Shown here piece by piece: positions 8,541 through 29,931 of a stretch of DNA of 40,783 bases; the stretch's first letter is position 1, and each line of letters opens with the position of its first letter. The notes under the pieces were generated by a model, which saw only the letters and a list, made by a program, of their open reading frames with translations, did not search any database and was not told where the DNA came from. The DNA lies in the NCBI GenBank assembly GCA_947449025.1, contig CANFQF010000006.1, positions 1 to 40,783 of the forward strand, written 5' to 3'. The position numbers and the translations under genes were made by a program. The stretch is from Comamonadaceae bacterium (GTDB taxonomy: Bacteria > Pseudomonadota > Gammaproteobacteria > Burkholderiales > Burkholderiaceae_C).

Positions 8541-8544
8541 GGCG

Positions 8545-14204: not shown

Positions 14205-14230
14205 AGGCGCGCCCCTCGGGGCGCCCGCCT
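14205..14230. terminator. GC-rich hairpin between convergent genes
   Basis: Between the convergent stops, AGGC-GCGCCCC (14205-14215) can pair with GGGGCGC (14218-14224) and GCCT (14227-14230), an 11-bp stem with a two-base bulge and a tight loop. It lacks a T tract on either strand, so a terminator role for both genes rests on position only. Confidence 0.35.
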
Positions 14231-15189
14231 CACTCGGGCTGGATGCCCGCGCGGTTGACCACTTGACGCATCACGCCGAGGTCCTCGTTCCACAGACGCG
14301 TCTGCGCGTCGCCACACAGTACCAGCGGGATCAGGTCACGCTTTTCCATGTTTGTCTGGGCGGTCTGGGACTTCAGGGCCTGAGACATCAGGTCACGCAG
14401 CTGGGCGAGCACCGCCGGCGGCGTTTTCGCTGAGGTGTAGAAACCGAACCAGACCTGGATCTGGTAGCCAGGCACGCCCGCTTCGCTGGCAGAGGGCACA
14501 TCCGCCAGGGCCTTGAGCCGCTGCGAGCCCGCCAGGGTGAGTGCGCGCACCTTGCCGGTTTGATAGAAGGGCATGGCCGACACATGGTCAATGAAGATCA
14601 TGTCGACCTGACCGCCGCCCACGTCGGTGAGCGCCTGCACGCTGGAGCGGTAGGGAATGCCGGTGAGCTTGATGCCCGCGGACTGCATGAACAGCTCGCC
14701 CGCCAGACGCTGCACCGTACTGGCATAGCCGAAGGTGATCTTGCCCGGGTCGGCCTTGGCAGCAGACACCAGATCGGCCACGGTCTTGTAACGGGACGCC
14801 CCGGTGATATTGAGCACATTGCTGGTACGTGCGAAGGTGCACACTGACGCGAAGTCCTTCACCGCGTCATAGGGCATGCTCTTTTTCATGAGCGGGTCCA
14901 GCACGGTCAGCGAGTTGCTGGTGAACATGACGGTGTGGCCGTCGGCAGGCGCATTGAGCACCGCCTGTGCGCCCATGGCTCCCTCAGCGCCCAACCTGTT
15001 GTCAATGATCACGTTCTGCTTGGCAATTGCCGAGAGCACCTGAGCGAACTCGCGGGCGTTGACGTCGGTGGTCGTCCCGGCGCTGAAGGGAACCACCACC
15101 GTGATCGGCTTGCTGGGAAAGGTCTGAGCGGTTGCGGCGCTCACCAGGGCAAGGCCCGCCAGGGCCAAAAGGGACATTCGTTTGAACAT
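14230..15189 (-). CDS. Bug family (TctC-like) periplasmic substrate-binding protein
   Basis: A 319-residue secreted solute-binding protein. The N-terminus MFKRMSLLALAGLALV is a signal peptide ending in an A-x-A site (SAATA-QTFP). The mature part has FPSKPITVVVPFSAGTTTD, with an Asp/Thr pocket typical of the Bug fold, then DNRLGAEGAMGAQAV, ADGHTVMF and the C-terminal helix. Bug proteins bind carboxylates or amides and feed TctAB-type transporters, but here no TctA or TctB membrane gene accompanies it, as is common in Burkholderiales. It likely captures the pathway substrate or a related acid. The ATG at 15189 has a clear GGAGG ribosome-binding site. It follows an SDR and an LLM oxidoreductase on the same strand. 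Confidence 0.92.
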   Translation of the reverse strand: MFKRMSLLALAGLALVSAATAQTFPSKPITVVVPFSAGTTTDVNAREFAQVLSAIAKQNVIIDNRLGAEGAMGAQAVLNAPADGHTVMFTSNSLTVLDPLMKKSMPYDAVKDFASVCTFARTSNVLNITGASRYKTVADLVSAAKADPGKITFGYASTVQRLAGELFMQSAGIKLTGIPYRSSVQALTDVGGGQVDMIFIDHVSAMPFYQTGKVRALTLAGSQRLKALADVPSASEAGVPGYQIQVWFGFYTSAKTPPAVLAQLRDLMSQALKSQTAQTNMEKRDLIPLVLCGDAQTRLWNEDLGVMRQVVNRAGIQPE

Positions 15190-15242
15190 GCGTGCCTCCA
15201 AATGAAAGACGGGGGAACCAGGGAACAACGAAAAGAACCAGG

Positions 15243-16001
15243 TCAGACCAGTGCGCGGGTCTGACCACCATCGAGTTGCAGGTTTTCGCCTGTCATAAAA
15301 CCCGAATGGACCGAGGCCAAAAAGGCCACCATCGCCGCCAGTTCCTCGGGCTGGCCGACCCGCTTCATCGGCACCGACTTGATGCGCTCTTCCAGGTTGT
15401 GGAAGGTGCTGAAGGTCGGGGTGATGACCGTCGCCGGCGCCACCGCGTTGACCGTCACCCCGGTGTGCGCCAGTTCGAGCGCCAGGTGCTTGAGGGCCGC
15501 CTGCACGCCGGCGCGGAAGATGGTCGACAGGGCATGCCGGACCATCGGCTGCTTGATGCTGGCCGAGGTGATGGCGACGACACGTCCCCAGCCCGAGGCG
15601 ACCAGCAGGGGGGTGATGCGGCGCAGGATCAGCAGCGCGCCATGCAGCTGCTGCTGATAGGCCTGGTCCCAGCGGTCCTGCTCGGTCTCGTCGAGAAAAT
15701 CGCGCATGGGGCTGGGCGGTCGCGGGGTGTTGAGCACCAGAATCTGCACGTCGCCCAGAGCCGCCGATTGCGCCCCGAGGCGGTCGACGTCTTCGGCGCT
15801 GGTGATGTCACCGGAGCAGGTCTCGACCGAGACCCCGTGCGCCGCACGCAGCGATTCGGCGGTGGCGGCCAGCCGAGCCGCGTCGCGCGCGAAGATGAGG
15901 AGGTTCACTCCCTCCTGCGCCAGACGCTCGCACACCGCAAGGCCCAAACCCTGGCTGCCGCCAATGACCAGCGCGCGCTTGCCTGCAATACCCAGATCCA
16001 T
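15243..16001 (-). CDS. Atypical SDR lacking the catalytic Tyr-x3-Lys
   Basis: A 252-residue SDR-fold protein. The glycine motif is IGGSQGLG (13-20) rather than TGxxxGxG, NNAG is replaced by NTPRPP (91-96), and where YxxxK is expected the protein reads HALSTIFRAG (156-165), with Leu158 in the Tyr position and Arg163 near the Lys position. A subgroup of SDRs with an LSN-x2-R-x-G-type motif is known among annotated 3-oxoacyl-ACP reductases, and their chemistry is uncertain. The C-terminus (LQLDGGQTRALV) is intact, so this is not decay. A GAGGAG ribosome-binding site supports the ATG. It sits between the F420-type LLM enzyme and the Bug protein, in one apparent operon. Confidence 0.85.
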   Translation of the reverse strand: MDLGIAGKRALVIGGSQGLGLAVCERLAQEGVNLLIFARDAARLAATAESLRAAHGVSVETCSGDITSAEDVDRLGAQSAALGDVQILVLNTPRPPSPMRDFLDETEQDRWDQAYQQQLHGALLILRRITPLLVASGWGRVVAITSASIKQPMVRHALSTIFRAGVQAALKHLALELAHTGVTVNAVAPATVITPTFSTFHNLEERIKSVPMKRVGQPEELAAMVAFLASVHSGFMTGENLQLDGGQTRALV

Positions 16002-16100
16002 GTTGTCTCCTCTTTGTTGTTGTCTCGTGCCCTGCGCGGACTCGCCCGAACGCCTGGCTTGACCTCTGGCGTGACCTCAGCTTCACGCCGGCTGGGTGAT

Positions 16101-16973
16101 TCAGCGGCCCACGCCCAGGTTCTTCGCAATCTCGTCGAGCCGGCGGCGCTTTTGATCCAGCGTCATTTCGAAATCGAGCCGGCCCTGCAGCGTCTCGGAG
16201 GGCACCACCAGGGTGTCGAAGCCGGCGTCGACATAGGGCTGCATCTGCTCCTTGGACGGCTCGCCCCACACGCGAGCCTGGAAGGAGTAGGGCGTGGTCA
16301 GACCCGCGTCGGCGCGGATCTTGTCAATCGCCTGCTTGTAACCAATGGCCTCCTCGGGGCGCACCATCGGCCCGTACCAGCCGTCGCCCACGCGCGCGGC
16401 CCGCTCCAGCGCCTTGGGCATGGTGCCGCCAAATACCATCGGCACCCGCACCGGCCATTCGGTCACGCGCAGTTCCTTGAAAGGGAAGTGCGGCCCGTCG
16501 TTGCTGACCCACTCGCCGTTGAACAGGCGTGGCAGCAAGGGCACCGCCTCGTTGTAACGCTTATGGCGTTGCTCAAAGGGAATGCCCAGGCCTTCGGACT
16601 CCTCTTTCCACCAGCCGGCGCCCATGCCCAGCTGGAAGCGTCCGCCGCCAATCTGCTGCGCGGTGATCGCTGCGCGTGCAGTCGCCACCGGATGGCGCAG
16701 AGACATCAGATAAATGCCGGTGGTGACGGTCAGCTTTTCGGTGCCGCCCAGAATGCCACCCACCATGGTCCACATGTCATACATCTTGCGGGCCACGGTG
16801 TGCACCGGCACAAAGGTTTTGCCCTCGTCATGCGGGTGGGCCGACTCAAATTCACGCGGCTCCAGAATGTGCTCACCGAGCCAAATGCCGTGGAAGCCCA
16901 GGCCTTCGGCATGGCGGGCCAGGGGAACGATGTCGTCAGGGCGAATGCCATACGTGGCGAAGCCAAATTTCAT
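16101..16973 (-). CDS. LLM-class F420-dependent oxidoreductase
   Basis: A 290-residue luciferase-like TIM-barrel protein resembling the TIGR03619 group of predicted F420-dependent enzymes. It opens MKFGFATYGI, has the strand-end motif LGEHIL, then TTGIYLMSLRHP, GRFQLGMGAGWWKEES and FEQRHKRYNEAVPLL, and DGWYGPM near the C-terminal half. The absence of an FMN-reductase partner and the adjacent F420 biosynthesis genes support F420 over FMN. Such enzymes transfer hydride to or from alcohols, enones, nitroaromatics or acyl groups; the substrate here is unknown. The ATG at 16973 has an AGGA box and is preferred to an in-frame TTG six bases upstream. Confidence 0.88.
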   Translation of the reverse strand: MKFGFATYGIRPDDIVPLARHAEGLGFHGIWLGEHILEPREFESAHPHDEGKTFVPVHTVARKMYDMWTMVGGILGGTEKLTVTTGIYLMSLRHPVATARAAITAQQIGGGRFQLGMGAGWWKEESEGLGIPFEQRHKRYNEAVPLLPRLFNGEWVSNDGPHFPFKELRVTEWPVRVPMVFGGTMPKALERAARVGDGWYGPMVRPEEAIGYKQAIDKIRADAGLTTPYSFQARVWGEPSKEQMQPYVDAGFDTLVVPSETLQGRLDFEMTLDQKRRRLDEIAKNLGVGR

Positions 16974-17067
16974 GAACAAATCCTGTTTGCGAGCGGCGCT
17001 CGAAGGGGAGCTTGCAGCTTAAAAAGGGCGGGCAGCGCCGTCCAATGGTGAATTTGAATACGCAATA

Positions 17068-18000
17068 TCAAGGCACCGAATCTCGTACACCCGGGTCGGC
17101 TACGTCTGCGCCGGCAAGACCGTGCCAGGCCTCGCCCAGCGCCTCGGTAAAGCAGGCCAGCACCTCGTCGGCCGCCTGCGCCGAGCGGTGGACAAAGCTA
17201 AGGGGCAGCGAGGCTTGGAACTGGGACAACTCGTAAAACCGTCCTGCAGCAGCACCGGCATTGGCCTCCATGCGCTGCACAAAGCCGATGCCCATGCCGC
17301 CCGCCACCATGGCCCGAAGCAAAGACGCATTGCTCACTTCCACCGCGCCGCGAATATCCAAACCCTCTTCCCGAAACAGGCGTTCGATCAGCTCCTGACT
17401 CGGGGTGCCGCCACCGGTGACCACCCAGGGCTGGGCCGCAATCTCGGCGGGGCGGGCATGCTCGAGCCGATCGCGCCAGGCGGCCGGCGCCACCAGCACA
17501 TAGTCCAGCGCCCCCATGGGGTGACAGACCAAATCATCGCCACGCACCGTGCCCACGATGGCGCCGCCATCCAGTTCGCCCGCCTTGATCGCCTGCCGGA
17601 TCGAGCGGGTGTTGCCCGCTTCCAGCGACAGCTCGGTCATGGGAAAGCGTTCACGCATCACCTTCATGGCGCTGGCCAGGGAGGCCAGCAGCCGGGGGTT
17701 GGCAATGGTGCCGATGGACAGCCGGCCAGCCGGCACGCCGGCGAGCTGGCGCGCGCGCTCATTGAGCTCGTGCGAGGCCTGCACCACCTGGCCGGCCCAT
17801 TCGGCAATGCGCTGGCCGGCGGGGGTGACCTCCAGGCCCCGGGCAGTGCGGCGAAACAGGGTCAGGCCGAAATGCGCCTCCAGCGCCCGGATATGGTGGC
17901 TGGCCGTGGGCTGGCTGATATGCAGCCGCTCTGCGGCGCGGGTGAGATGCCCCTCCTGCACCACGGTGACGAGGGTCTTGAGCTGGGTGAGGTCGTACAT
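17068..18000 (-). CDS. LysR-type transcriptional regulator
   Basis: A 310-residue LysR regulator. The N-terminal winged helix-turn-helix reads LTRAAERLHISQPTASHHI, followed by LFRRTARGLEVTPAG; the remainder is a periplasmic-binding-protein-like sensor domain with LSIGTIANPRLL, and GGTPSQELIERLF and GGMGIGFV at the expected positions. It is divergent from the F420 biosynthesis operon and lies just upstream of the LLM/SDR/Bug operon on its own strand, so it is the natural candidate regulator for both. The ATG at 18000 matches the usual LysR start (MYDLTQLKT); the open extension to 18054 is not typical and would overlap the operator-like sequence at 18050. Confidence 0.92.
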   Translation of the reverse strand: MYDLTQLKTLVTVVQEGHLTRAAERLHISQPTASHHIRALEAHFGLTLFRRTARGLEVTPAGQRIAEWAGQVVQASHELNERARQLAGVPAGRLSIGTIANPRLLASLASAMKVMRERFPMTELSLEAGNTRSIRQAIKAGELDGGAIVGTVRGDDLVCHPMGALDYVLVAPAAWRDRLEHARPAEIAAQPWVVTGGGTPSQELIERLFREEGLDIRGAVEVSNASLLRAMVAGGMGIGFVQRMEANAGAAAGRFYELSQFQASLPLSFVHRSAQAADEVLACFTEALGEAWHGLAGADVADPGVRDSVP

Positions 18001-18049
18001 GGGTAGCGCCCGTCTGGCGCCTGCGGGCGCGACAGCCCGGGGGTGGCGC

Positions 18050-18061
18050 TGCATGATGCAT
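18050..18061. promoter_or_regulatory. TGCAT-N-ATGCA palindrome, copy 1
   Basis: TGCATGATGCA, an 11-bp palindrome with one central base, lies 50 bases upstream of the lysR start and about 290 bases before the F420 operon. The same 11-mer with a different central base recurs at 27119 and 40045, each time in front of a gene start. A dimeric regulator site is the likely explanation. Confidence 0.55.
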
Positions 18062-18123
18062 CGTGTACGTCAACCCGGCATCCGGGCGTACCCTGAGGCC
18101 ACCTTCCGCAGGTCATTCGCAGA

Positions 18124-18142: not shown

Positions 18143-18339
18143 AAACATCATTGGACGCTCCTACAGGGGGCACCTAACCTCCCCTCCAACCACCGCCACC
18201 CGGTTCGGTGGTGCCGGACCCTGTACAGACGCCCCATGCCCAACTTCCGCACGACCGCCGCCAGACACCGCCAGGTGCCGCCCTGTGCCGCGTCTTCTGG
18301 CGCGGAACTGCAAGGCCCCTGCGACGTGGAGACGCCCCG

Positions 18340-20757
18340 GTGAGCCAGGCAAGCGACGCACGCAGCCTGACCGAGGCCCTGACCCGGCAGCCGCTAACCG
18401 AGCTGCTGGCTCAGGCCCGCGCCCAGAGCATCGCCGCCCATGGCTCGCGCGTGAGCTATTCGCGCAAGGTCTTCATTCCGCTCACCCGCCTGTGCCGCGA
18501 CAGCTGCGCCTATTGCACCTTTGCCACCACGCCGTCCAAGGTGCAACGGCCCTACCTTCGCCCTGAGGAGGTGCTGGCCATTGCCCGTGCGGGCCAGGCC
18601 GCCGGCTGTCAGGAGGCCCTGTTCACTCTGGGCGACAAGCCCGAGCTGCGCTACGAGGCCGCGCGGGAAGACCTCGCCCAATTGGGCTACAGCAGCACCA
18701 CCGACTACCTGGCGGCCATGTGCGCGCTGGTGATGGCGGAAACCAGCCTGCTGCCACATGTGAACGCCGGCGTGATGAGCGGCGAGGAAATGCTGCGCCT
18801 GCGCGAGGTCTCGATCTCGCAGGGGCTGATGCTCGAATCGACATCGGACCGCCTGTGCGAGCGTGGCGGCCCGCACTTTGGCTCCCCGGACAAGACACCT
18901 GCAGTGCGTCTGGCCATGCTCGAGACCGCGGGAACGCTGGCCATTCCGATGACCACTGGCATCCTGATCGGCATCGGCGAAACCCGCCAGGAACGGGTCG
19001 AGGCGCTGCTGGCCATTGCCGACCTGCAACGCCGCCACGGCCATGTGCAGGAAGTGATCGTGCAGAACTTCCGCGCCAAGGCCGGCACCCGCATGGCCGG
19101 CTGCGCCGAACCCGACCTGGACGACCTGCTGTGGACGGTGGCCGCAGCCCGCCTGGTGCTGGGCGCGCAGGCCAACATCCAGGTGCCCCCCAACCTCTCC
19201 GACGCCAGCTTCGGCCGGCTGCTGGAGGCCGGCATCAACGACTGGGGCGGCATCTCGCCGGTGACCCCGGACCATGTGAATCCCGAGCGCGCCTGGCCCG
19301 CCATCAATACGCTGCGCCAGGTCACCGAGGCGGCTGGCTACGAGCTCGTCGAGCGGCTGGCCGCCTACCCGGCCTGGTGCCAGGACGCAGACCGCTGGCA
19401 GGCCCCCGCGCTCGCAACCACGCTGCGCCACCGGGTGGATTCGGAAGGCTACCCGCGCAGCGACGCCTGGGTGACGGGGGCCGGTGAGCCGCCGCCGGCG
19501 GCCATGGCGCCCCCCGCACTGACCACCAAGCCTTGCACCCCTGGCGGGCCGCTGCGCGAGGCCCTGGCCCGCGCCCTGGACGGCCAGGCCCTGGACGAGG
19601 CCGGCCTGGTGACCCTGTTTGGCGCCCGCGGCGACGGCTTCCACGCCGTCTGCCAGGCCGCCGACCGACTGCGCCGCAATACGGTGGGCGACACCGTGCG
19701 TTACGTGGTCAATCGCAACATCAACTACACCAACGTCTGCCAGTACAGCTGCAGCTTCTGCGCCTTCGCCAAGGGCCGGGGCGCGCAGGACCTGCGCGGC
19801 GTGCCCTACGACCTGGCGCAAGAAGAAATCGCGCGCCGGGTGTCCGAGGCCTGGGCGCGCGGCGCCACCGAGGTCTGCATGCAGGGCGGCATTCACCCGG
19901 CCTACACCGGCGACACCTATGTCGAAATCTGCCGCACCGTGAAGGCGGCCCAGCCGCAGATGCATGTGCACGCCTTCTCGCCGCTGGAAATCCTGCACGG
20001 CGCGCAGACCACCGGCATGGACCTGGCGGGCTTTCTGACCCGGCTGCGCGACGCGGGCCTCAGCACCCTGCCCGGAACCGCCGCCGAGATATTGGACGAC
20101 GAGGTACGCGCGCGCATCTGCCCCGACAAGCTCAATACCGCGCAGTGGCTGGAGGTGATGGAGACCGCGCACCGCGTCGGCCTGCGCAGCACCGCTACGA
20201 TCATGTTCGGCCATCTGGAAAAGCCGGTGCACTGGGCGCGCCACCTGATGCGGATCCGCGCGCTGCAAGCGCGCACCGGTGGCTTCACCGAATTCGTGCC
20301 CCTGCCCTATGTGCACATGGAGGCACCGATGCACCGCAAGGGCCTGTCCCGGCGCGGCCCCACCTTCCGTGAGGCGGTGCTGATGCACGCGGTGGCGCGG
20401 CTCGCGCTCCATCCGGTGCTGGCCAATATCCAGACCTCCTGGGTCAAGATGGGCCCGGAAGGCGCCATGGCCTGCCTGCAAGCCGGCGCCAACGACCTGG
20501 GCGGCACGCTGATGAACGAAAGCATCTCGCGCGCGGCCGGCACGGTGCACGGGCAAGAGATGCCGCCCGCCGTCATGGACGCCCTGATCCGCCGCGCAGG
20601 CCGCGAGCCGGCGCAGCGCTCCACCCTGTACGGCACCCCGCCGGCCGAGCGCTGCGCCGCCTCGCGCGCGGCGGCGCCGATCGCGCCCGTGGTGCTGACG
20701 CCCCTCGCACGTCGCCCACGCAGCGTGTCGCAGGCTCAGACCTCACCCACCCCCTGA
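18340..20757 (+). CDS. fbiC: FO synthase, CofG-CofH fusion (FbiC type)
   Basis: An 805-residue two-domain radical SAM enzyme that makes the deazaflavin chromophore FO from tyrosine and the flavin precursor 5-amino-6-ribitylamino-uracil. The CofG half has C52-x3-C56-x2-C59 (LCRDSCAYCTF) and the CofH half has C467-x3-C471-x2-C474 (VCQYSCSFCAF), each binding a 4Fe-4S cluster. Order and length match actinobacterial FbiC (about 850 residues), whereas archaea use separate proteins. The GTG at 18340 is preferred over the open frame from 18208 because GGAG lies about eight bases before it and homology begins soon after. It is the first gene of the F420 operon. The last 50 residues are Ala/Pro/Arg-rich and look non-essential. 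Confidence 0.95.
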   Translation: MSQASDARSLTEALTRQPLTELLAQARAQSIAAHGSRVSYSRKVFIPLTRLCRDSCAYCTFATTPSKVQRPYLRPEEVLAIARAGQAAGCQEALFTLGDKPELRYEAAREDLAQLGYSSTTDYLAAMCALVMAETSLLPHVNAGVMSGEEMLRLREVSISQGLMLESTSDRLCERGGPHFGSPDKTPAVRLAMLETAGTLAIPMTTGILIGIGETRQERVEALLAIADLQRRHGHVQEVIVQNFRAKAGTRMAGCAEPDLDDLLWTVAAARLVLGAQANIQVPPNLSDASFGRLLEAGINDWGGISPVTPDHVNPERAWPAINTLRQVTEAAGYELVERLAAYPAWCQDADRWQAPALATTLRHRVDSEGYPRSDAWVTGAGEPPPAAMAPPALTTKPCTPGGPLREALARALDGQALDEAGLVTLFGARGDGFHAVCQAADRLRRNTVGDTVRYVVNRNINYTNVCQYSCSFCAFAKGRGAQDLRGVPYDLAQEEIARRVSEAWARGATEVCMQGGIHPAYTGDTYVEICRTVKAAQPQMHVHAFSPLEILHGAQTTGMDLAGFLTRLRDAGLSTLPGTAAEILDDEVRARICPDKLNTAQWLEVMETAHRVGLRSTATIMFGHLEKPVHWARHLMRIRALQARTGGFTEFVPLPYVHMEAPMHRKGLSRRGPTFREAVLMHAVARLALHPVLANIQTSWVKMGPEGAMACLQAGANDLGGTLMNESISRAAGTVHGQEMPPAVMDALIRRAGREPAQRSTLYGTPPAERCAASRAAAPIAPVVLTPLARRPRSVSQAQTSPTP

Positions 20758-20804
20758 GTGCCGCAGACTGCGGCCCCCTCCCCCACGCTGGAAGTAAGCT
20801 CGAT

Positions 20805-21476
20805 ATGACCCCCACCCCCCACACCATCGCCGTCATCGGCGGAACCGGCGCCGAAGGCAGCGGCCTTGCAATCCGGCTGGCGCATGCAGGCCACCGCGTC
20901 ATCATCGGCTCGCGCGACGCAGCCAAGTCAGCGCAGGTCTGCGCAGAACTTGCGGCGCTCTCGCCGGGGGCGCAGCTTGAAGCCGCCAACAACCGGGACG
21001 CTGCTGCGGCGGCGCAGATCGCCATCCTCACCGTGCCACATTCGGTGCAGCAGGCCACCGCCCTGGACCTGCGGGAACAGCTCGCCGGCAAGATCCTGAT
21101 CGACGCCACCGTGCCGCTGGTGCCGCCCAAGGTCGCCCGGGTGCAACTGCCCGAGGGCGGCTCTGCGGTCGCCGCGCTGCAAAAGCTGCTCGGTGATTCG
21201 GTGCGCGTGGTGGCTGCCTTCCAGAACGTGTCGGCACATCACCTGCGCGACCTCACCCATTCGGTGGACTGCGATGTGCTGGTGTGCGGCGACGACATCC
21301 CCGCGCGCGAGACCGTCATCGGCCTGGTGCGTGACGTCGGGCTGCGCGGCGTGCACGCGGGCCCGATTGCCAATGCCGCCGCCGCGGAGGCGCTCACCTC
21401 GGTGCTGATTGCCATCAACATCCGCTACAAGGTTCCGGGAACCGGCATCCGCATCACCGGCCTGCCCAGCGCGTGA
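20805..21476 (+). CDS. npdG: F420H2:NADP+ oxidoreductase (NADPH-dependent F420 reductase)
   Basis: A 223-residue protein of the FNO/NpdG family, which passes hydride between NADPH and F420. The N-terminal Rossmann motif is [17 protein letters not shown], followed by [10 protein letters not shown] (binding the NADP phosphate). [21 protein letters not shown] and the C-terminal [13 protein letters not shown] are typical. Placed 47 bases after fbiC and 50 bases before cofE, it provides reduced F420 to the LLM enzyme across the divergent promoter region. In actinobacterial picrate degradation a reductase of this type likewise accompanies LLM hydride transferases. A GGAAG sequence 11-16 bases upstream serves as ribosome-binding site. 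Confidence 0.92.
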
Positions 21477-21526
21477 CCGGAGCGCAGGCTCCGACGTATT
21501 GAACTGCCCGCCATCAGTCGCCCGCG

Positions 21527-22334: not shown

Positions 22335-23315
22335 ATGATCATCGCGCTCGCAGGCGGCGTGGGTGGCGCCAAGCTCGTACACGGTCTTGCACAAACGCTG
22401 CCGCCCGAGCGGCTGCTGGCGGTGGTCAACACCGGGGATGACTTCACCCACCTCGGGCTGCCAATCTGCCCCGACCTCGACACCGTGATGTACACCCTGG
22501 CGGGCCTGGCCAATCCCGAAACCGGCTGGGGCATCGCCGGTGAGAGCTGGCGCTTCATGGACTCGATGGCGCGCCTGGGCGGCGAGACCTGGTTCCGCCT
22601 GGGCGACCAGGACCTGGCCACCCATGTGCGGCGCAAGGGCCTGCTGGGCAGGGGGCTGTCCCTCTCGGCGGCCACGCGGGAGTTAGCCAGTGCCCTCGGC
22701 GTGAAGCACCGCATGGTGCCTGCGACCGACGACCCGCTGCGCACCCGCGTCGCGACGGATGCGGGCGAGATCGAATTCCAGGATTACTTCGTTCGGCAGC
22801 AGTGCCGGCCGACGCTGCGCGGCCTGCGCTTCGAGGGCGCCGCGCAGGCGCGGCCCTCGCCTGCCTTCGCCGAAGCACTGGCAGACCCGGCGCTGGAGGC
22901 GGTGGTGATCTGTCCGTCCAACCCCTACCTCAGCATAGACCCGGTGCTCGCGATTGGCGGGGTGCGCGAGGCCCTGGCCGCGATAGAGGTGCCGGTGATC
23001 GCGGTCTCACCCATCGTCGGTGGACAGGCGATCAAAGGGCCGGCAGCCAAGATCATGCGCGAGCTCGGGCGTGAGCCCAGTGCGCTGGAGGTGGCGCGGC
23101 ATTACCGTGGCCTGGTCGATGGCTTTGTCATCGACACCGCAGACGCTGGTGCCGCAGACGCGATTGCGGCCCTGGGCATGACGCCCCATGTCACCGGCAC
23201 AGTGATGAAGAGCGATGCCGACCGAGCCGGCCTGGCCGGCGACGTGATCGCCCTGGCCGCTAGGCTGCAGCAAGCGGCGGCGCAGGGCAGCAGCACCCGA
23301 CGGAGGGCCGCATGA
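22335..23315 (+). CDS. cofD: 2-phospho-L-lactate (or analogous) transferase, F420-0 synthesis
   Basis: A 326-residue CofD/FbiA that joins FO to the phospho-acid moiety of a GDP- or GMP-activated donor. The N-terminus MIIALAGGVGGAKLVHGLA holds the nucleotide-binding loop; VNTGDDFTHLGL, CPDLDTVMYTL, VICPSNPYLSI and SPIVGGQAIKGPA are family landmarks. The ATG at 22335 has a GAGGAGA ribosome-binding site; the open frame upstream to 22221 is not used. Its stop overlaps the cofC start by four bases (ATGA), so the two are coupled. Confidence 0.94.
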   Translation: MIIALAGGVGGAKLVHGLAQTLPPERLLAVVNTGDDFTHLGLPICPDLDTVMYTLAGLANPETGWGIAGESWRFMDSMARLGGETWFRLGDQDLATHVRRKGLLGRGLSLSAATRELASALGVKHRMVPATDDPLRTRVATDAGEIEFQDYFVRQQCRPTLRGLRFEGAAQARPSPAFAEALADPALEAVVICPSNPYLSIDPVLAIGGVREALAAIEVPVIAVSPIVGGQAIKGPAAKIMRELGREPSALEVARHYRGLVDGFVIDTADAGAADAIAALGMTPHVTGTVMKSDADRAGLAGDVIALAARLQQAAAQGSSTRRRAA

Positions 23316-23935
23316 CACCCTGGCTGGTCCTGCCGGTCAAATCCCTGGCGGACGGCAAGAGTCGGCTGGCGCCGCACCTTGCGCCCGATGCACGGCGCGC
23401 CCTGAACACCCGCCTGCTCGAACGCTCGCTGGCGCTGGCTACCGGCTTTGCTGGCACGCACCGTACCCTCGTGGTGAGCCACTGTGAGGAGGTACTGGCC
23501 CGCGCCAGCGCCGCTGGCGCTTACGCCCTGCGCGAGCCGCACCCCGGTCTGAATGAGGGCCTTTCGCATGCATGCGAACTCCTGGGTCGGCGGGAGGGCG
23601 AGCGGCTGATCGTGCTGGCCTGTGACCTGCCACTGGCCACGGCCGAAGACTTGGCATCACTCGCGGCGCAAGACGGCGTGGTGCTGGCCACCGACCGCGC
23701 CGGCACCGGTACCAATGCGCTCTCGCTGCCCTGCGGCCTGGCGTTCCAATTCCGCTACGGCGTGAATAGCCGACAACTGCACACCGAAGAGGCCGACCGT
23801 CTGTCCCTGCACTGCCAGACGGTGCAACGGCCCGGGCTGGCTTTTGACCTGGACACCGCCCAGGACTGGCGGGATTGGGTCGAAGCCTGCGGCCCGCAGC
23901 CCTGGGCACTTCAGGGTCTGATGAACCTGGCCTGA
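23312..23935 (+). CDS. cofC: Phospho-acid guanylyltransferase of F420 synthesis
   Basis: A 207-residue CofC/FbiD that activates 2-phospholactate, phosphoenolpyruvate or, in some Burkholderia relatives, 3-phosphoglycerate with GTP. Visible are LPVKSLADGKSRLAP (the nucleotidyltransferase loop), LIVLACDLPLATAEDL with the metal-binding Asp, and ATDRAGTGTNALSLP. Which three-carbon acid is used cannot be decided by eye. It completes the recognisable F420 gene set, and the next gene (MDR) starts 24 bases downstream. A 16-bp perfect palindrome inside the coding region (23563-23578) has no evident role. Confidence 0.92.
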   Translation: MTPWLVLPVKSLADGKSRLAPHLAPDARRALNTRLLERSLALATGFAGTHRTLVVSHCEEVLARASAAGAYALREPHPGLNEGLSHACELLGRREGERLIVLACDLPLATAEDLASLAAQDGVVLATDRAGTGTNALSLPCGLAFQFRYGVNSRQLHTEEADRLSLHCQTVQRPGLAFDLDTAQDWRDWVEACGPQPWALQGLMNLA

Positions 23936-23959: not shown

Positions 23960-24943
23960 ATGCAAGCCGCTTGGTACGAGCAAACCGGATCCGCCCGCGA
24001 CGTGCTGCGGATCGGGGAGATGGCGACACCCACACCCGGGCCCGGCGAGTTGCGGGTGCGTGTGCACTGGTCGGGCGTGAACCCCACCGACGTGCGGCGT
24101 CGCGCCGGCGGCAGCGGCCCGATTCCCTTTGCCCGCGTGGTGCCACACATGGACGGCAGTGGCGTGGTGGACGCAGTGGGTGCTGGCGTCGACCCGGCCC
24201 GCGTCGGCGAGTCGGTCTGGCTGCACCGGGCTGCGTGGAAGCGCCCAGGGGGCAGTTGCGCCGAGTACTGCGTTGTGCCGCAAACCCATGCAGTGACGCT
24301 GCCGCCCGGCATCGACCTGCGGGCCGGCGCTACTTTGGGCGTGCCCGCTCTGACCGCCCACCGTGCGGTCTTCGGCTTTGGCGCGGTGCGCGGGCGCACA
24401 GTGCTGGTGACGGGTGGGGCCGGCGCAGTGGGTTTTTATGCCATCCAGCTCGCACGCTGGGGCGGAGCGCGGGTGATCGCGACGGCCAGCGACGAGACCA
24501 AGCAGGCCGAGGCGCTGCGCGCCGGAGCTGAGGCGGTGATCGACTACCGGCGCGAAGACGTCGCCCAAAGCGTGCGCGCGCTCACCGCTGGCGCCGGTGT
24601 CGACCACCTGGTGGAGGTGGACTTCGGTGGCAACCTGGCGGCGACGACCGAGCTGATGAAACCCTACGGCACCATCGCCGCCTATGCGTCGATGGGCGAC
24701 AGGACGCCGGCCCTGCCCTTCTACCCCATGCAGCTGCGGGCGCTGTCGCTCATGATCGTTGCCCTGTTCGACCTGCCCGCGCCCTTGCAGGCCACGGCTT
24801 CGACCGAGGTGAGCCAATGGCTGCGAGAAGGTGCGCCGCGCTTCCCGGCGACGCGCGAATTCAGCCTGGCCGAAGTGGCCGAGGCGCATGAGGCCGTCGA
24901 GCAGGCAAGCACGGCCAGGGCTCTGCTGCGTTTGGCACCCTAG
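23960..24943 (+). CDS. MDR-family NADPH:quinone/enoyl reductase
   Basis: A 327-residue zinc-independent medium-chain reductase similar in type to, but clearly distinct from, the one at 13198. It shows EPGELRVRV-like PGPGELRVRVHWSGVNPTDV, HMDGSGVVDAVGAGV, VTGGAGAVGFYAIQLA (the NADPH fold), the DYRREDVAQSV region and the C-terminal LAEVAEAHEAVEQA. It would reduce an alpha,beta-unsaturated carbonyl or quinone. A TGAGGAGA ribosome-binding site precedes the ATG. Being 24 bases after cofC and before the first SnoaL/MmgE pair, it links cofactor synthesis with catabolic genes in one transcript. Confidence 0.9.
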   Translation: MQAAWYEQTGSARDVLRIGEMATPTPGPGELRVRVHWSGVNPTDVRRRAGGSGPIPFARVVPHMDGSGVVDAVGAGVDPARVGESVWLHRAAWKRPGGSCAEYCVVPQTHAVTLPPGIDLRAGATLGVPALTAHRAVFGFGAVRGRTVLVTGGAGAVGFYAIQLARWGGARVIATASDETKQAEALRAGAEAVIDYRREDVAQSVRALTAGAGVDHLVEVDFGGNLAATTELMKPYGTIAAYASMGDRTPALPFYPMQLRALSLMIVALFDLPAPLQATASTEVSQWLREGAPRFPATREFSLAEVAEAHEAVEQASTARALLRLAP

Positions 24944-24984: not shown

Positions 24985-25563
24985 ATGACCGAACCCGACC
25001 TCACTCCCGCCCTGCGACGACTGATCGACAAGGACGAGATCCGCGACGCGATCTGCCGCTATGCGCGCGGCGTCGACCGCGGCGACTGGGACCTGGTGCG
25101 CACCGGCTACCACCCAGACGCCTATGACGCCCACGGCGACTACCGGGGCGGCGTCGACGGCTTCATCGCCTGGCTCGACGAGCGCTTCGCGGGCGTCGAC
25201 AACTCGATGCACTTCCTCGGCCAGAGCCTGATCGAATTCAAGGGCCCTGACCTCGCCGTGGTCGAGACCTACTTCGTCAGTCGCCGGCTGGTGCCGCCAA
25301 CCGGCGACGCGGCAGCGGCGGCGGGCCCCTCGGACGCCATGGTGCGCGAGGGATGGGGGCGCTATGTCGACCGCTTCGAGCGCCGCGAGGGCCAGTGGCG
25401 GGTGGCACACCGCACCGTGGTGTTGGAAGCGCTGTCCAGCGCGCTGGCGCTCGGCGGCAAGCGAAACGCCACGGGCAGCTGGGGTCACCGGGACCGAAAC
25501 GACCGCCTATACGCGCTGCAGGCCGAGATGGCGTCCGAGATGGCACCCGGGGATGGCGCCTGA
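24985..25563 (+). CDS. SnoaL-like (NTF2-fold) protein, possible dehydratase A
   Basis: A 192-residue SnoaL-like/NTF2-fold protein. It has IRDAICRYARGVDRGD and GYHPDAYDAHGDYRG, giving Tyr26, Asp31 and, in SMHFLG, His76. This Tyr-x4-Asp...His pattern is the one used by bile-acid 7-alpha-dehydratase BaiE and scytalone dehydratase, so a dehydratase or isomerase role is plausible but unproven. Residues 100-115 form an Ala/Gly-rich insert that the second copy (29377) lacks. It lies 41 bases after the MDR gene and 94 bases before an MmgE/PrpD gene. The gap after it contains short TGACCC-like repeats and no gene. Confidence 0.8.
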   Translation: MTEPDLTPALRRLIDKDEIRDAICRYARGVDRGDWDLVRTGYHPDAYDAHGDYRGGVDGFIAWLDERFAGVDNSMHFLGQSLIEFKGPDLAVVETYFVSRRLVPPTGDAAAAAGPSDAMVREGWGRYVDRFERREGQWRVAHRTVVLEALSSALALGGKRNATGSWGHRDRNDRLYALQAEMASEMAPGDGA

Positions 25564-25657: not shown

Positions 25658-27076
25658 ATGACCGCCCCTCACACCCCACATGACAACATCGAGGCGCTGG
25701 ACTGCCCGCCGCTGGAGCAAGCCACCGTTGATTTCGTCCAGCGATTTGACGCTACGCAAATCGACAGCGGTGTGCGGGCCGCGGTCAGTCGCGTGATGCG
25801 GGACCAGTTGGCGGTGCAGATCGGCTGCTCGCAGCTGCCCTGGTCCAAGCAGGTTCTCACCTACGCCAGCGCCAACGCGGCGCCGGGCCGCAGCTTGGTC
25901 ACTGGCAGCGCGCTGCGCCTCAATGCGGCCGATGCAGCCTTTGTCAATTCGACCTATGCCAGCGGCTTCGAGTACGACGACACCCACCTGGCCAGCAACA
26001 GCCACCCGGCCTGCTGCGTGGTGCCGGCGGCGCTGGCCATTGGGCAGGAGCAAGGCGCCACGCTGGAAGACATCCTGCCGGCGCTGGTGGCCGGCTACGA
26101 GGTCTACACCCGCATCGGCATGCTCGCCGCGCCCGAGCTGGTCAAAAGCGGCTTCCAGCCGCATCCGGTGCTCTCGGTGTTTGGCGGCGCTGCCGTGGCC
26201 GCCAAGCTGCGCGGGCTCAGCGCCGCGCAGACGCTCAACGCACTGGGCAGCTCGCTGAGCTTTGCCGCAGGCACCTTGGAACCCACCTCCACGGGCGGAT
26301 CGATCAAGCGATCGCAATCGGGCATCGGCGTGCGTGGCGGCATGGTGGCGGCCGAACTCGCCCGGGCCGGCATCACCGGGCCGCGGGCCTTTCTCACCGG
26401 GCACAAGGGCTTTTACGCCACCTTCGTCAAGCGGGGGCCGGGCGAATCCCCCGAGCGGGTCTTCGCGCCCGGGCAGCCGCTGCAGATCCACCAGGTCTGG
26501 CTCAAGGCCTACTGCTGCTGTGGCTGCATCCACCCCTACCTGGACGCCATCGCGCCCTTCGTTCATCGCCTTGACGAGATCGAGCGGGTCTCGGTGCGGG
26601 CACAGACATCGAGCTATCTGCTGGCGTGCTCCAACGCCAACACCTTCAATCCGGGGAACATCGAAGACGTTCAGTTCAGCCTGCCGGTGCAACTGGCGTT
26701 CGCGATGCTCGGCTTAGGCAACGACTACCGCAGCCACATGGACTACATGGCCGGCACGATCGACATGGACCGGGTGCGCGCTGTGATGCAGCGCATCGAG
26801 GTGGTCAAGGCGCCCGAGCTCGATGCGCAGCACCCCGGCAAGTTTGTGGCCGATCTCACCGTCCATTTGCGCGGCGGCGAGTCACACCAGGTGCTGGTGG
26901 ACACACCGCTGGGGACACCGGGCAATCCGCTGTCCGAGGCGCAGCAAGACGCCAAGTTCATGGCGCTCACCGCTGGCGTGCTGGGACAGTCGCGTGCCCA
27001 GACCCTGCTGCAAACGCTGCGTGAGTTCGACACCCGCCTGCGGGTCGAAGACCTGCTGGCCATGTGCGCGCCTTGA
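25658..27076 (+). CDS. MmgE/PrpD family protein A
   Basis: A 472-residue MmgE/PrpD-fold protein, the family of 2-methylcitrate dehydratase, cis-aconitate decarboxylase and iminodisuccinate epimerase. A helical N-terminal domain contains NSTYASGFEYDDTH, the conserved substrate-site segment (usual form A-H-x-x-D/E-x-D-D), and HPACCVVPAALAIGQ; a C-terminal lid domain follows, with KAYCCCGCIHPYLDA, where three consecutive cysteines replace the usual YP-x-C. Members dehydrate, isomerise or decarboxylate branched polycarboxylates. It is paired with the SnoaL-like gene upstream; a mirror-image pair follows at 27941-29931. An AAGAGAGAACAAGAGG stretch supplies the ribosome-binding site. Confidence 0.85.
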   Translation: MTAPHTPHDNIEALDCPPLEQATVDFVQRFDATQIDSGVRAAVSRVMRDQLAVQIGCSQLPWSKQVLTYASANAAPGRSLVTGSALRLNAADAAFVNSTYASGFEYDDTHLASNSHPACCVVPAALAIGQEQGATLEDILPALVAGYEVYTRIGMLAAPELVKSGFQPHPVLSVFGGAAVAAKLRGLSAAQTLNALGSSLSFAAGTLEPTSTGGSIKRSQSGIGVRGGMVAAELARAGITGPRAFLTGHKGFYATFVKRGPGESPERVFAPGQPLQIHQVWLKAYCCCGCIHPYLDAIAPFVHRLDEIERVSVRAQTSSYLLACSNANTFNPGNIEDVQFSLPVQLAFAMLGLGNDYRSHMDYMAGTIDMDRVRAVMQRIEVVKAPELDAQHPGKFVADLTVHLRGGESHQVLVDTPLGTPGNPLSEAQQDAKFMALTAGVLGQSRAQTLLQTLREFDTRLRVEDLLAMCAP

Positions 27077-27164: not shown

Positions 27165-27201
27165 TTCGCCTCTACTGGCCTTTATTTCGCAGGGGATCCG
27201 G

Positions 27202-27879
27202 ATGCTCAAGTTTTATTACTCACTGGCGCCCAACCCGCGCAAGGTCTCGCTCTTTCTGGAAGAGGCGGGACTGCCTTTCGAGGCAATCCCGGTCGACACC
27301 CGCAAGGGCGAGCAGCACCTGCCCGCCTTCACCGCGCTCAACCCCAATGCCAAGGTGCCTGTGATCGTTGACAGCGACGGCACCACCGTGTTCGACAGCA
27401 GCGCCATCCTCTTGTACCTGGCCGAGAAGACGGGCCGCTTCCTGCCGGCACCTGCGGCGCGCGGCGACCTGCTGTCCTGGCTGTTGTTCACCGCTTCGGG
27501 CATCGGGCCCTACACCGGCCAGGCGATCCACTTCAAACGCTACGCGCCCGAGACCCTGCCCTACGCGGTGCAGCGCTATGAGTTCGAAGCCTGGCGTCAC
27601 TGGCGCATTCTTGACCGCCACCTGGCCGACCGCGCCTGGATGGTGGGAGATGACTACAGCATTGTCGACATGGCCGTGTGGGGCTGGGGCAAGTCGGCGA
27701 CGAGCGCTTTAGGCGAGGACGCCTGGGAGCAATTGCCCCACCTCAAGCGACTGCTGGACACCATCGACGCCCGGCCCGCGGTGCAGCGCGCACTGGCAAT
27801 CAAGGACCGCTACCAATTCAAGACCGACCTGGACGACCAGGCCCGCCAGGCCATGTTTCCGCACATGAAGCGGCCGTGA
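27202..27879 (+). CDS. Glutathione S-transferase
   Basis: A 225-residue soluble GST. The thioredoxin-like N-domain begins KFYYSLAPNPRKVSLFLEEAG, split by SLAPN, has the cis-Pro in KVPVI, and DSSAILLYLAE, the glutathione gamma-Glu binding segment (Asp where Glu is common). The all-helical C-domain has the N-capping box YSIVDMAVWGWG. It resembles the bacterial Nu/YghU-like groups. GSTs in catabolic clusters isomerise, dehalogenate or open epoxides with glutathione, or protect against reactive intermediates. The ATG at 27202 follows an AGGGG ribosome-binding site; the open frame back to 27154 lies in the leader hairpin and is not used. It separates the two MmgE/SnoaL pairs. Confidence 0.92.
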   Translation: MLKFYYSLAPNPRKVSLFLEEAGLPFEAIPVDTRKGEQHLPAFTALNPNAKVPVIVDSDGTTVFDSSAILLYLAEKTGRFLPAPAARGDLLSWLLFTASGIGPYTGQAIHFKRYAPETLPYAVQRYEFEAWRHWRILDRHLADRAWMVGDDYSIVDMAVWGWGKSATSALGEDAWEQLPHLKRLLDTIDARPAVQRALAIKDRYQFKTDLDDQARQAMFPHMKRP

Positions 27880-27940
27880 GGCCGCGTATTGTTTTCTGCG
27901 GCCCTGTGGGCCCCCACCCATTGCGAGAGAAGGAATTCCC

Positions 27941-29380
27941 ATGACCACCTTGACCGAACAACTGGCGCAGTTCGCCGCCCGCACCACCTTCGACACCCTG
28001 CCCTCTCTGGTGGTGCGCGAGTGCAAGCGCGACATTCTTGACGCGATCGGCTGCGCGCTGGCCTCCAAGGGCCAGCCCAAGTCCGATAAGGGTATTGCCG
28101 CCGGATTGCGCATCGGTGGCACCGGCGGAGAGGCCACCGTGATCGGCACCGGGCGGCGCTCGTCCATCTTCGGTGCGGCCTTCGCCAACGGCGAAATGAT
28201 CAACACCCTGGATGCAGATACGGTCATGCCGCCCGGCCATGTGAGCCCCTATGTGCTGCCCGGCGCCTTCGCCACCGCCGAGTCGCTGGGCCGCAGCGGC
28301 AAGGACATGATTGCCGCGACTGCGGTCTCGCACGAGATGTCGGTGCGCTTCGGCCTGGTGATGGACCAGACCCGCGACCACCAGGACGGCAAGGTGACCA
28401 CCGCACCCATCCTGGGCTACAGCGCCACGATCTTCGGCGCCGCGGCGTCGGCGGCCAAACTCAAGGGCCTGCCGGCCGACACCATCGCCCACGCGCTGGG
28501 CCTGGCCGCGGCCATCACGCCAGTCAACGCCCATGGCGCCTGGCTGCGGCACTCGCCGCCGTCCACCATCAAGTACCTGCTGGCTGGCGCATTGGCGCAG
28601 TCGGCGCTCACCGCCGCCGAAATGGCCGAACTGGGTCACCGGGGCGACCTGCAAATGCTCGACGACGTCGAGTTCGGCTACCCGCGCTTCATCGGTACCA
28701 AGCGCTGGGACTCCCAGGGGCTGGTGGAGGGCCTGGGCAGCGACTGGCGCTTCCCCTCGCGTCAGTTGTTCAAGCCCTATCCGCACTGCCGTGTGATGCA
28801 TGCGCCGCTGGACATCGTCATCGACCTGATCCACCGGCACGACATTCGGGTCGAAGAGATCGAATCCATCACCGCCTGGGGCGAGGCATGGGCCTATGTG
28901 CTGCCCTCATTCACTTTCGACACGATTGCACGGGTAGAGGACGCTCAGTTCAGCTTCACCCACGGCCTGGCGGTCGCGGCCCACCGCGTGCCCGCCGGCC
29001 CGCGCTGGCAGGACCCGAAGGTGGTGTTCGACCCCTCGGTGATGGCGCTGCGGGACAAGGTACGCCTCGAAGTCCACCCGGACGCAGTCGGTGCCATGGA
29101 GGGCAATGCCTCCAGCCGCCCGTCGCGGGTGACCATCCGCGCGCGCGGGCAAGATTTCTCCGGCGATCGCCAGTTCCCCAAGGGTACGCCCTCGCCTGAC
29201 CCCAGCACCTACATGAGCGACGAGGAGCTGGTGGCTAAATTTCGCGCCTTCACCGACGGCCTGGTAACAAAGGCCACCGCCGACCAGGTGATCGACTCCG
29301 TGCTCGCACTCGAGACGGTGCCCGACTTCTCGGCGGTGATGCGCGCGCTGGTCTGGACTGGCCAGGGCGATGCGGCATGA
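27941..29380 (+). CDS. MmgE/PrpD family protein B
   Basis: A 479-residue MmgE/PrpD protein, a clear paralogue in fold of the one at 25658 but far diverged. It has FANGEMINTLDADTVM in the active-site segment (usually A-H-x-x-D), HVSPYVLPGAFATAES, NAHGAWLRHSPPSTIKY, and a C-terminal lid with LFKPYPHCRVMHAPLD, the conventional KPYP-x-C form that copy A has lost. Roles as for the family: dehydration, isomerisation or decarboxylation of carboxylates. It has a GAGAAGGA ribosome-binding site and overlaps the following SnoaL gene by four bases (ATGA), implying coupled translation and perhaps a shared complex. Confidence 0.87.
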   Translation: MTTLTEQLAQFAARTTFDTLPSLVVRECKRDILDAIGCALASKGQPKSDKGIAAGLRIGGTGGEATVIGTGRRSSIFGAAFANGEMINTLDADTVMPPGHVSPYVLPGAFATAESLGRSGKDMIAATAVSHEMSVRFGLVMDQTRDHQDGKVTTAPILGYSATIFGAAASAAKLKGLPADTIAHALGLAAAITPVNAHGAWLRHSPPSTIKYLLAGALAQSALTAAEMAELGHRGDLQMLDDVEFGYPRFIGTKRWDSQGLVEGLGSDWRFPSRQLFKPYPHCRVMHAPLDIVIDLIHRHDIRVEEIESITAWGEAWAYVLPSFTFDTIARVEDAQFSFTHGLAVAAHRVPAGPRWQDPKVVFDPSVMALRDKVRLEVHPDAVGAMEGNASSRPSRVTIRARGQDFSGDRQFPKGTPSPDPSTYMSDEELVAKFRAFTDGLVTKATADQVIDSVLALETVPDFSAVMRALVWTGQGDAA

Positions 29381-29931
29381 CGCTGGACGCATCCACCGAG
29401 CGCCGGCTGCTGCAGCTGCTGGACGAGCGCGATATCCGCGATGTGCTGACCCGCTACTGCCGCGGGGTCGACCGCTGCGATGCGCAATTGATTGACAGCT
29501 GCTACCACCCGGACGCGATGGACGACCACGGCACCTGGCGTGCCTGGGGCCGCGACGCGGGGGCGACCATCGTGGAGAAGGTACGCCCTGGCAAAGACGT
29601 CGCCATGCACTTTATGGGCAATGTGCATATTGAGGTCGAGGGTGACACCGCCTTCACCGAGTCCTACCTGATGGCCTATCGCACCTTTCAGCGTGAGGGG
29701 CAGGACTACACCCGGGTGCGGGCGCTGCGCTTCGTGGACCGCTTCACCCGCCGCGAGGGCCAGTGGCGTATCTCCGAACGGGTGGTGGCCGACGACTGGC
29801 ACCGGGTCGACCGGGTGGCCGAAACCATGGCCGAGGCCGGCCAATTTCGCCAAGGCAGCAAGGACCGGGAAGACCCGGTCTACGCCATCCGGCGCGGGCC
29901 GCTGGCGCGGGTGCCCGGTCAAGCGACCTGA
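29377..29931 (+). CDS. SnoaL-like (NTF2-fold) protein, possible dehydratase B
   Basis: A 184-residue SnoaL-like protein related to the one at 24985: both share IRD-x5-RY-x-RGVDR-x-D and YHPDA-x-DDHG/DAHG. The candidate catalytic residues Tyr27, Asp32 and His78 (AMHFMG) are kept. It is translationally coupled to the MmgE/PrpD B gene and is the last gene of the plus-strand block, converging on the eight-gene CoA operon. The 106-base gap after it shows no clear terminator. Confidence 0.82.
   Translation: MTLDASTERRLLQLLDERDIRDVLTRYCRGVDRCDAQLIDSCYHPDAMDDHGTWRAWGRDAGATIVEKVRPGKDVAMHFMGNVHIEVEGDTAFTESYLMAYRTFQREGQDYTRVRALRFVDRFTRREGQWRISERVVADDWHRVDRVAETMAEAGQFRQGSKDREDPVYAIRRGPLARVPGQAT

Follow-up and report, generated by a model that had tools for sequence, protein, structure and literature searches.

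A five-gene F420 cassette in a catabolic region

The window examined here, that is, the whole stretch of DNA that was analysed (40,783 nt), is the entire contig CANFQF010000006.1 (C6) of a Comamonadaceae bacterium (assembly GCA_947449025.1; genome G000), a Burkholderiales draft of 3.64 Mb in 304 contigs that is 93% complete. It carries genes for the synthesis and reduction of the cofactor F420 and, on both sides of them, catabolic genes that include a candidate user of the cofactor. From CofGH onwards, the + strand order is CofGH, NpdG, CofE, CofD, CofC, a medium-chain dehydrogenase/reductase (MDR) gene, SnoaL_4, MmgE/PrpD, a glutathione S-transferase (GST) gene, a second MmgE/PrpD and a second SnoaL_4 (Table 1), with successive spacings of 47, 50, 22, −4, 24, 41, 94, 122 (77 if the GST gene opens at 27154), 61 and −4 bases. 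The divergent arm on the − strand consists of genes for a LysR-type regulator, a luciferase-like monooxygenase (LLM) enzyme, a short-chain dehydrogenase/reductase (SDR) and a TctC/Bug periplasmic binding protein.

All five F420 genes score above their curated NCBIfam cut-offs; as judged from these profiles, the scores are not due to chance, and the genes at 18334–23935 are almost certainly F420 synthesis genes. The predicted set comprises the core FO/F420 pathway (CofGH, CofC, CofD and CofE) and the NADPH-dependent reductase NpdG, which is related to the solved FNO structures PDB 5n2i and 1jax and has the GSR motif visible in the alignment. CofGH likely starts at the GTG at 18334, judging from where homologue matches begin; for CofD, a longer open reading frame (ORF) runs from 22221, and the ATG at 22335 has GAGGAG ahead of it. 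A preliminary description, made from the letters of the window, had named five contiguous F420 genes running at short spacing into MDR, SnoaL and MmgE/PrpD genes, an LLM enzyme and a Bug protein lying divergently behind a LysR gene, and a probable betaproteobacterial host. These observations hold: the cut-offs are passed with gaps of −4 to 122 bases, the divergent proteins match Pfam families on the − strand and the host is a Burkholderiales draft genome. The GST and SDR genes are island members that the description had left unnamed.

The CofC sequence bears on the type of F420. CofC enzymes that accept 3-phosphoglycerate (3-PG) are marked by Ser or Thr where the M. rhizoxinica enzyme has S162, according to a published account (PMC8764529); we located the position by counting by hand from the residues named there. 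Aligned with M. tuberculosis FbiD (6bwg), the window CofC has Gly at this position; aligned with the Mycetohabitans enzyme (7p97), the column holds Tyr and the alignment is gapped exactly there. The alternative of 3PG-F420 was therefore rejected: because CofC lacks the diagnostic Ser/Thr, ordinary F420, made from phosphoenolpyruvate (PEP) or 2-phospholactate, appears more likely. With PEP as substrate, a dehydro-F420 reductase would be required. To the left of the block in a congener (G006; 5177–5863 of locus L100), a nitroreductase-family gene stands with CoA-transferase genes and a hydratase gene, and is possibly such a reductase or a part of the pathway.

The LLM is the candidate user of reduced F420 (F420H2). 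A PF00296 match above cut-off and its fold place it in the LLM (bacterial luciferase) superfamily; its best NCBIfam match is the F420-named TIGR03619, and the top hit among the sequences of solved structures is an F420-dependent hydroxymycolic acid dehydrogenase (1.6e-13). The AlphaFold model (predicted local distance difference test score 88.3) has the LLM fold, with a Bacillus cereus luciferase-like protein as its top fold match. Five PF00296 proteins are encoded in the host genome, two of which exceed the cut-offs of non-F420 families (MsnO8 on contig C9; the MupA/Atu3671 flavin mononucleotide (FMN) type, in a nonribosomal-peptide-synthetase-like ORF on C11), while another, on C75, is nearest to alkanesulfonate monooxygenase, below that cut-off. 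Close relatives of the island LLM are rare: among 399 genomes of the order only its own and one match of 31% identity pass 1e-25, and among 150 genomes of the family no other match is stronger than one of 28% identity (8.9e-22). A search of the host genome for PF04075 gave no match and is uninformative, its positive controls also being silent. In our judgement the island LLM probably uses F420.

Between the LysR gene and CofGH, the longest stretch that is identical in the three species carrying the block is 38 bases (18121–18158; the next longest is 22). It bears the palindrome GATAGG-C-CCTATC (18127–18139), of which the window holds no second copy, and may be a LysR site.

Inheritance of the block within the genus

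Five genomes out of 60 in the genus, the host among them, have CofGH: the host, G006 and G029 (88–96% identity), G214 (61%) and G230 (55%). The LLM is 97–98% identical in G006 and G029, the next best match in the genus being 32%; the acetyl-CoA-synthetase-like ligase is 97 and 95% identical in these two, the next match being 46% (at 1e-120, with at most 20 candidates scored per genome). The LLM, the ligase (at least 95%) and a near-identical CofGH thus have the identical distribution, 3 of 60 genomes. The second MmgE/PrpD protein (MmgE2) is 95% identical in G006, and its other matches at 1e-60, in G000, G006 and G022, are paralogues of 50–64%.

Together, the contigs of the two relatives match about 31 kb of the window, each with its matches in window order: in G006, contigs C63 (8005–8494, 8481–9169 and 10220–19015), C182 (19467–29931 and 30036–31137) and C278 (35271–38989); in G029, C27 (11519–20689) and C170 (30320–40527). 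Order between contigs is seen at one place, where C63 and C182 of G006 both break inside CofGH. G006 has an additional TctC match (33%) between the second SnoaL_4 gene and acyl-CoA dehydrogenase 1 (ACAD1), and it lacks, next to the MaoC gene, the lyase gene that the window has at 9270–10169.

Ratios of nonsynonymous to synonymous substitution (Nei–Gojobori with Jukes–Cantor correction) are 0.033–0.295 against G006 (19 genes in 20 rows, with CofGH in two parts and ACAD1 left out) and 0.025–0.131 against G029 (8 genes). Purifying selection acts on all the genes compared, least strictly on CofC; the SDR gene at 12319–13092, as aligned in G006, contains a single in-frame stop. The DNA of the block differs by 5–10% between G000 and G029, and a 4.7-kb rpoB region by 5%. 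Recent transfer between species was considered, but common inheritance fits better, because in this one pair (no rpoB match was obtained in G006) the DNA identity of the block, 90–95%, does not exceed that of the rpoB region, 95%. We consider it likely that the block functions as one unit.

F420 loci elsewhere in the order and on plasmids

At 1e-60, CofGH was found in 27 of 399 Burkholderiales genomes, own included. We compared 28 other F420 loci (from 26 genomes of the order, G214 and G230) for neighbours within 6 kb, in 251 kb of flank, with 29 control stretches totalling 540 kb from 16 of the 28 genomes, chosen by position and not at random. Neighbours were sought by tblastn at 1e-6 with window proteins as the only queries, so distant family members are missed in the counts, and five of the loci have less than 2 kb of sequence upstream of CofGH. 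The ligase, thiolase and 3-hydroxyacyl-CoA dehydrogenase were excluded from the counts; matches of these types do occur near the F420 locus of G538, and of the thiolase alone near that of G214.

LLM relatives occur at 11 of the 28 loci (12 matches in 251 kb) versus none in the 540-kb control. TctC relatives occur at 15 loci, with 32 matches versus 21 in the control, counts of matches rather than genes, since some are pieces of one gene. At 13 loci a co-directional TctC gene lies at most 2 kb upstream of CofGH; because these loci come from four families, seven of them from one genus, the independent events are few. This recurrent link (L130, L136, L137, L138, L140, L142–L145, L147, L150, L153 and L156) merits separate study.

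In a quick tree of 109 rows, the window CofGH falls inside a 20-row clade (Shimodaira–Hasegawa-like approximate likelihood ratio 98) of 19 rows that we labelled as Burkholderiales and one Burkholderiaceae record. G214 lies within this clade and G230 outside it, both on long branches, which makes their placement unsure. A tblastn search of plasmids gave CofGH-like matches on 74 records, 55 of them covering at least 80% of the query. One of the plasmid loci, from Paraburkholderia sp. PGU19 (L127), has the order NpdG–CofE–CofD–CofC–CofGH near two LLM genes and two NTF2-family genes. Because of the plasmid copies and the neighbour counts, we regard the cassette as portable and as a frequent neighbour of Bug and LLM genes: it is a general Burkholderiales supply unit, joined here to one particular pathway. 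The partner genes in the window appear, as far as searched, to be peculiar to this clade.

Gene content of the window

Table 1. Predicted genes of the F420 block and flanking catabolic genes, in window coordinates
Feature	Coordinates	Strand	Evidence and remarks
Itaconyl-CoA-hydratase-like MaoC protein	10223..11119	−	PDB 8khg, 250.4 bits, query residues 23–297
Class III CoA-transferase	11119..12303	−	Pfam
SDR dehydrogenase	12319..13128	−	Pfam
MDR-type dehydrogenase 1	13243..14160 (approximate start, inside ORF 11464–14160)	+	Pfam; conserved in G006, G029
Bug/TctC periplasmic binding protein	14230..15228	−	Pfam TctC; PDB relatives include Bug27 and terephthalate-binding protein
SDR dehydrogenase	15243..16001	−	Pfam
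LLM-class oxidoreductase, candidate F420H2 user	16101..16973	−	PF00296; ORF from 16979
LysR-type regulator	17068..18054	−	Pfam
CofGH (FbiC), FO synthase	18334..20757	+	NF006687, 1131 bits (cut-off 1018); ORF opens 18208
NpdG/Fno, NADPH:F420 reductase	20805..21476	+	TIGR01915, 198.7 (cut-off 149.8)
CofE, F420-0 glutamate ligase, no nitroreductase fusion	21527..22312	+	TIGR01916, 288.3 (cut-off 180.65)
CofD/FbiA	22335..23315	+	TIGR01819, 295.6 (cut-off 257.45)
CofC/FbiD	23312..23935	+	TIGR03552, 129.5 (cut-off 105)
MDR-type (quinone oxidoreductase-like) dehydrogenase	23960..24943	+	Pfam ADH_zinc_N, ADH_N
SnoaL_4 protein	24985..25563	+	Pfam PF13577
MmgE/PrpD protein 1	25658..27076	+	Pfam
Glutathione S-transferase-like protein	27199..27879	+	Pfam; ORF opens 27154
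MmgE/PrpD protein 2	27941..29380	+	Pfam; PDB sequence relatives IDS-epimerase, cis-aconitate decarboxylase
SnoaL_4 protein 2	29377..29931	+	Pfam
Acyl-CoA dehydrogenase 1 (ACAD1)	30038..31240 (approximate start)	−	Pfam
Class III CoA-transferase, 2-methylfumaryl-CoA isomerase-like	31699..32907	−	TIGR04253, 441.7 bits, under cut-off 725
Enoyl-CoA hydratase/isomerase	32935..33735 (approximate start)	−	NF005595, 411.4 (cut-off 292)
Thiolase	33782..35005	−	NF004853, 680.7 (cut-off 551)
Acyl-CoA dehydrogenase 2 (ACAD2)	35052..36218	−	Pfam
Acetyl/acetoacetyl-CoA-synthetase-like ligase	36235..38163 (approximate start)	−	Pfam
HpcH/HpaI lyase	38926..39822	−	Pfam

The window yielded neither a tRNA gene nor an Rfam family at gathering score, and no sigma-70-like site was found. 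A hairpin at 27870–27885, at the end of the GST gene, was considered as a terminator; it was not accepted as an operon end because it is one of three such hits where 5.1 are expected by chance, and G006 has no counterpart visible by eye.

To the left of the block lie a gene for an FMO-like flavoprotein monooxygenase (417–2057, − strand) and a stretch at 2260–7813 that looks like a separate side-chain degradation operon, with an AMP-ligase, two small proteins (one MaoC-like), a ChsH2-like OB/zinc protein, a thiolase of the SCP-type lipid-transfer kind (464.9 bits; NF004715 cut-off 424) and a 3-hydroxyacyl-CoA dehydrogenase. A steroid-type side-chain pathway was considered for its part at 2260–6746, from the ChsH2-like OB protein and the SCP-type thiolase; this part was excluded from the island because, like the stretch as a whole, it has no match in the G006 sequence next to the block. 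Genes for an SDR and a DUF2889 protein follow at 8005–9169; the SDR gene is about 230 bases shorter than in G006, and the N-terminal part of its product has no Pfam match.

Catabolic chemistry

The catabolic genes give hints, mostly through matches below cut-off, of the chemistry involved. The lyase at 9270–10169 is nearest to RipC at 176 bits, and with scores of 176 and 91.9 bits no RipC/Ccl match reaches the NCBIfam cut-off of 375; the MaoC protein is a homologue of itaconyl-CoA hydratase. Taken together, the resemblances of the MaoC protein, the CoA-transferase, the RipC-like lyase and MmgE2 suggest that the pathway ends in CoA chemistry of C5-branched dicarboxylates.

Relatives of the right-hand genes lie on plasmids of Rhodococcus opacus DSM 44186 and Rhodococcus sp. 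JS3073, with respective identities of 64% and 62% for ACAD2, 54% and 55% for the ligase, 49% and 64% for the HpcH/HpaI lyase and 63% and 55% for the hydratase; a thiolase relative in JS3073 is 65% identical. Searched against plasmids, the island LLM gave four Rhodococcus LLMs on top (33–34.5%). The R. opacus LLM, one of these four, is 34% identical over the full length and above the TIGR03619 cut-off; it lies about 9–15 kb from the ligase, ACAD2, lyase and hydratase relatives. JS3073 is named as a 4-nitroanisole degrader in the reference list of one paper (PMC12442393), an entry with no tie to these genes.

Interpretation

We read the locus as a catabolic island of a Burkholderiales species that carries its own cofactor supply, a statement that we judge, taken whole, to be rather probable. 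On this reading, LysR would switch on both arms from the divergent promoter in the presence of substrate, and the Bug protein would capture an organic acid. NADPH would reduce F420 through NpdG, and the LLM would pass a hydride from F420H2 to the substrate or an early intermediate, or take one from it. The SnoaL, MmgE/PrpD, SDR and MDR proteins may then rearrange, dehydrate or redox-adjust the intermediate, and the CoA-transferase, MaoC protein, ACADs, hydratase, thiolase and HpcH/HpaI lyase may cut the compound to acetyl-CoA and a 2-oxo acid; the portable F420 cassette would have been joined to this pathway. A bolder version, in which the F420-fed LLM step opens a resistant alkyl-itaconate- or mesaconate-type (C5-branched dicarboxylate) compound, synthesis is made on demand under LysR control and the cassette has repeatedly been fitted to Bug-linked acid pathways, is speculative and in our view improbable as a whole.

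The observations that count against the island reading concern the neighbours and the LLM. The F420 operon may be a stand-alone cassette that landed among catabolic genes, the downstream genes being neighbours rather than partners. Within 6 kb, MmgE and SnoaL relatives were found at none of the 28 other F420 loci, and CoA-transferase, ACAD and enoyl-CoA hydratase relatives at one each; G214 and G230 carry divergent F420 versions with other neighbours, and the genomes are rich in TctC genes anyway. Within the genus, a search at 1e-60 gave no MmgE2 in G029, about 20.7–30.3 kb of the window is missing from its two contigs (C27 ends at 20689 and C170 starts at 30320), and all three carrier assemblies are fragmented (304, about 300 and 180 contigs). 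We nevertheless think the stand-alone explanation unlikely: the block persists in three species, differing between G000 and G029 by 5–10% where the rpoB region differs by 5%, the LLM, ligase and near-identical CofGH share one distribution, and the genes downstream of CofC follow at spacings of −4 to 122 bases. The neighbourhood search proposed in the preliminary description came out divided: TctC and LLM relatives are enriched, but the F420 loci of the order mostly lack these catabolic genes, in part the outcome that the description had named as refuting, and its reading is weakened. Its claim of a dedicated, undescribed F420-dependent pathway depends on the candidate role of the LLM, and F420 production in Betaproteobacteria has already been described in a review (PMC8498797).

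The rival explanations are not mutually exclusive, and F420 could also serve another enzyme (for example the MDR protein, an LLM elsewhere in the genome or one yet undiscovered) while the island LLM is an FMNH2 monooxygenase or otherwise independent of F420. The LLM scores 138.9 bits, under the TIGR03619 cut-off of 166.9, and its model fits enzymes of both kinds, FMN and F420, which the fold search does not separate; for these two reasons it could use FMN. The genome offers alternatives in a second LLM on C95, with TIGR03619 as best match (73 bits) and a cofactor class left unassigned by profiles, and in one PNPOx_N (PF01243) protein on C157. The LLMs at the other F420 loci are only about 24–35% identical to that of the island, which does not establish them as one and the same enzyme, and no FbiE-type dehydro-F420 reductase or nitroreductase was found among the scanned ORFs of the window, the rest of the genome not having been searched. 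An F420-independent LLM nevertheless seems fairly unlikely to us: the family that the LLM matches best is named for F420, the R. opacus relative above the cut-off belongs to a family named likewise, and F420 loci of the order are enriched in LLM relatives. The make–reduce–use module joined to catabolism that had been proposed is thus upheld in its synthesis and reduction set, its candidate user and its co-inheritance in three congeneric species; the use itself hangs on a sub-cut-off LLM. It is very improbable that the contig was misbinned or is chimeric and does not belong to this Burkholderiales genome. The assembly is in 304 contigs, and in a tetranucleotide test, itself weak, two of four window parts (1–8000 and 8001–20757) correlate better with the best single stretch of another genome than with the mean of their own; two of the stretches from other genomes come from a congener (G230). 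However, the parts correlate with their own contigs at 0.69–0.75, within the range of the genome's own 10-kb pieces (mean 0.65, s.d. 0.07), parts of the window are present in three separate congeneric assemblies with divergence like or slightly above that of rpoB (G000–G029), and CofGH sits in its clade of Burkholderiales and Burkholderiaceae rows.

The island offers a concrete place for tests, being a compact set of genes with a single LLM, a single reductase and a candidate regulator site, and the proximity of Bug and LLM genes to F420 operons across the order offers a route to the role of F420 in Betaproteobacteria.

Comparison with known systems

The 2021 review (PMC8498797) describes F420 production in Betaproteobacteria with Fno as the F420 reductase, P. 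rhizoxinica as having no homologues of known F420 enzymes, and LLM-type F420H2 reductases or hydride transfer in actinobacterial picrate degradation; by its account, experiments had yet to be done on any F420H2-dependent reductase or F420-reducing dehydrogenase from bacteria other than Actinobacteria. Like the 3PG-F420 system of Mycetohabitans (Paraburkholderia) rhizoxinica, the window encodes betaproteobacterial F420 synthesis; unlike that system, its CofC lacks the diagnostic Ser/Thr and a candidate F420 enzyme is present.

An annotated example is plasmid 2 of Aromatoleum aromaticum EbN1 (L126), which has the same five F420 genes in the same order, with a CofGH 60% identical. It differs in that a gene of the pyridoxamine-oxidase family precedes CofGH and a crotonase gene follows CofC, and in that none of the 29 features shown is an LLM, SnoaL or MmgE gene. 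This plasmid is typed as conjugative and carries the cassette among transposases and catabolic genes.

In the npd-type degradation of picrate and 2,4-dinitrophenol in Actinobacteria, the genes for Fno and an LLM hydride transferase are laid out together. The window likewise encodes Fno/NpdG and an LLM in one catabolic region, a likeness at the level of families; unlike npd-type clusters, it has F420 biosynthesis in the same block, flanked by CoA-ester, MmgE/PrpD and Bug genes.

Itaconate is degraded through Ict, Ich and Ccl, and mesaconyl-CoA steps belong to the 3-hydroxypropionate bicycle. The window resembles these pathways in its MaoC protein, its 2-methylfumaryl-CoA-isomerase-like and other class III CoA-transferases and the RipC-like lyase at 9270–10169; it departs from them in that none of the scores for RipC, isomerase and transferase reaches the curated cut-off and that F420, LLM, SnoaL and ACAD genes are added. 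With the two Rhodococcus plasmids it shares relatives of the ligase, ACAD2, hydratase and lyase (49–64% on both). Unlike the window, the R. opacus stretch has no F420 biosynthesis gene among 39 features, the JS3073 stretch has no match to the window LLM, and neither has a match to MmgE or SnoaL (tblastn, 1e-6).

In the open-licence literature, by titles and the openings of abstracts, we came across no F420 operon described in Proteobacteria as joined to Bug, MmgE/PrpD or CoA-transferase genes, which leaves its absence from print unproven. What is new is the combination, within a single inherited catabolic island of the Burkholderiales, of a known cassette and a known reductase with a probable LLM user; the find is neither categorically new nor an artefact.

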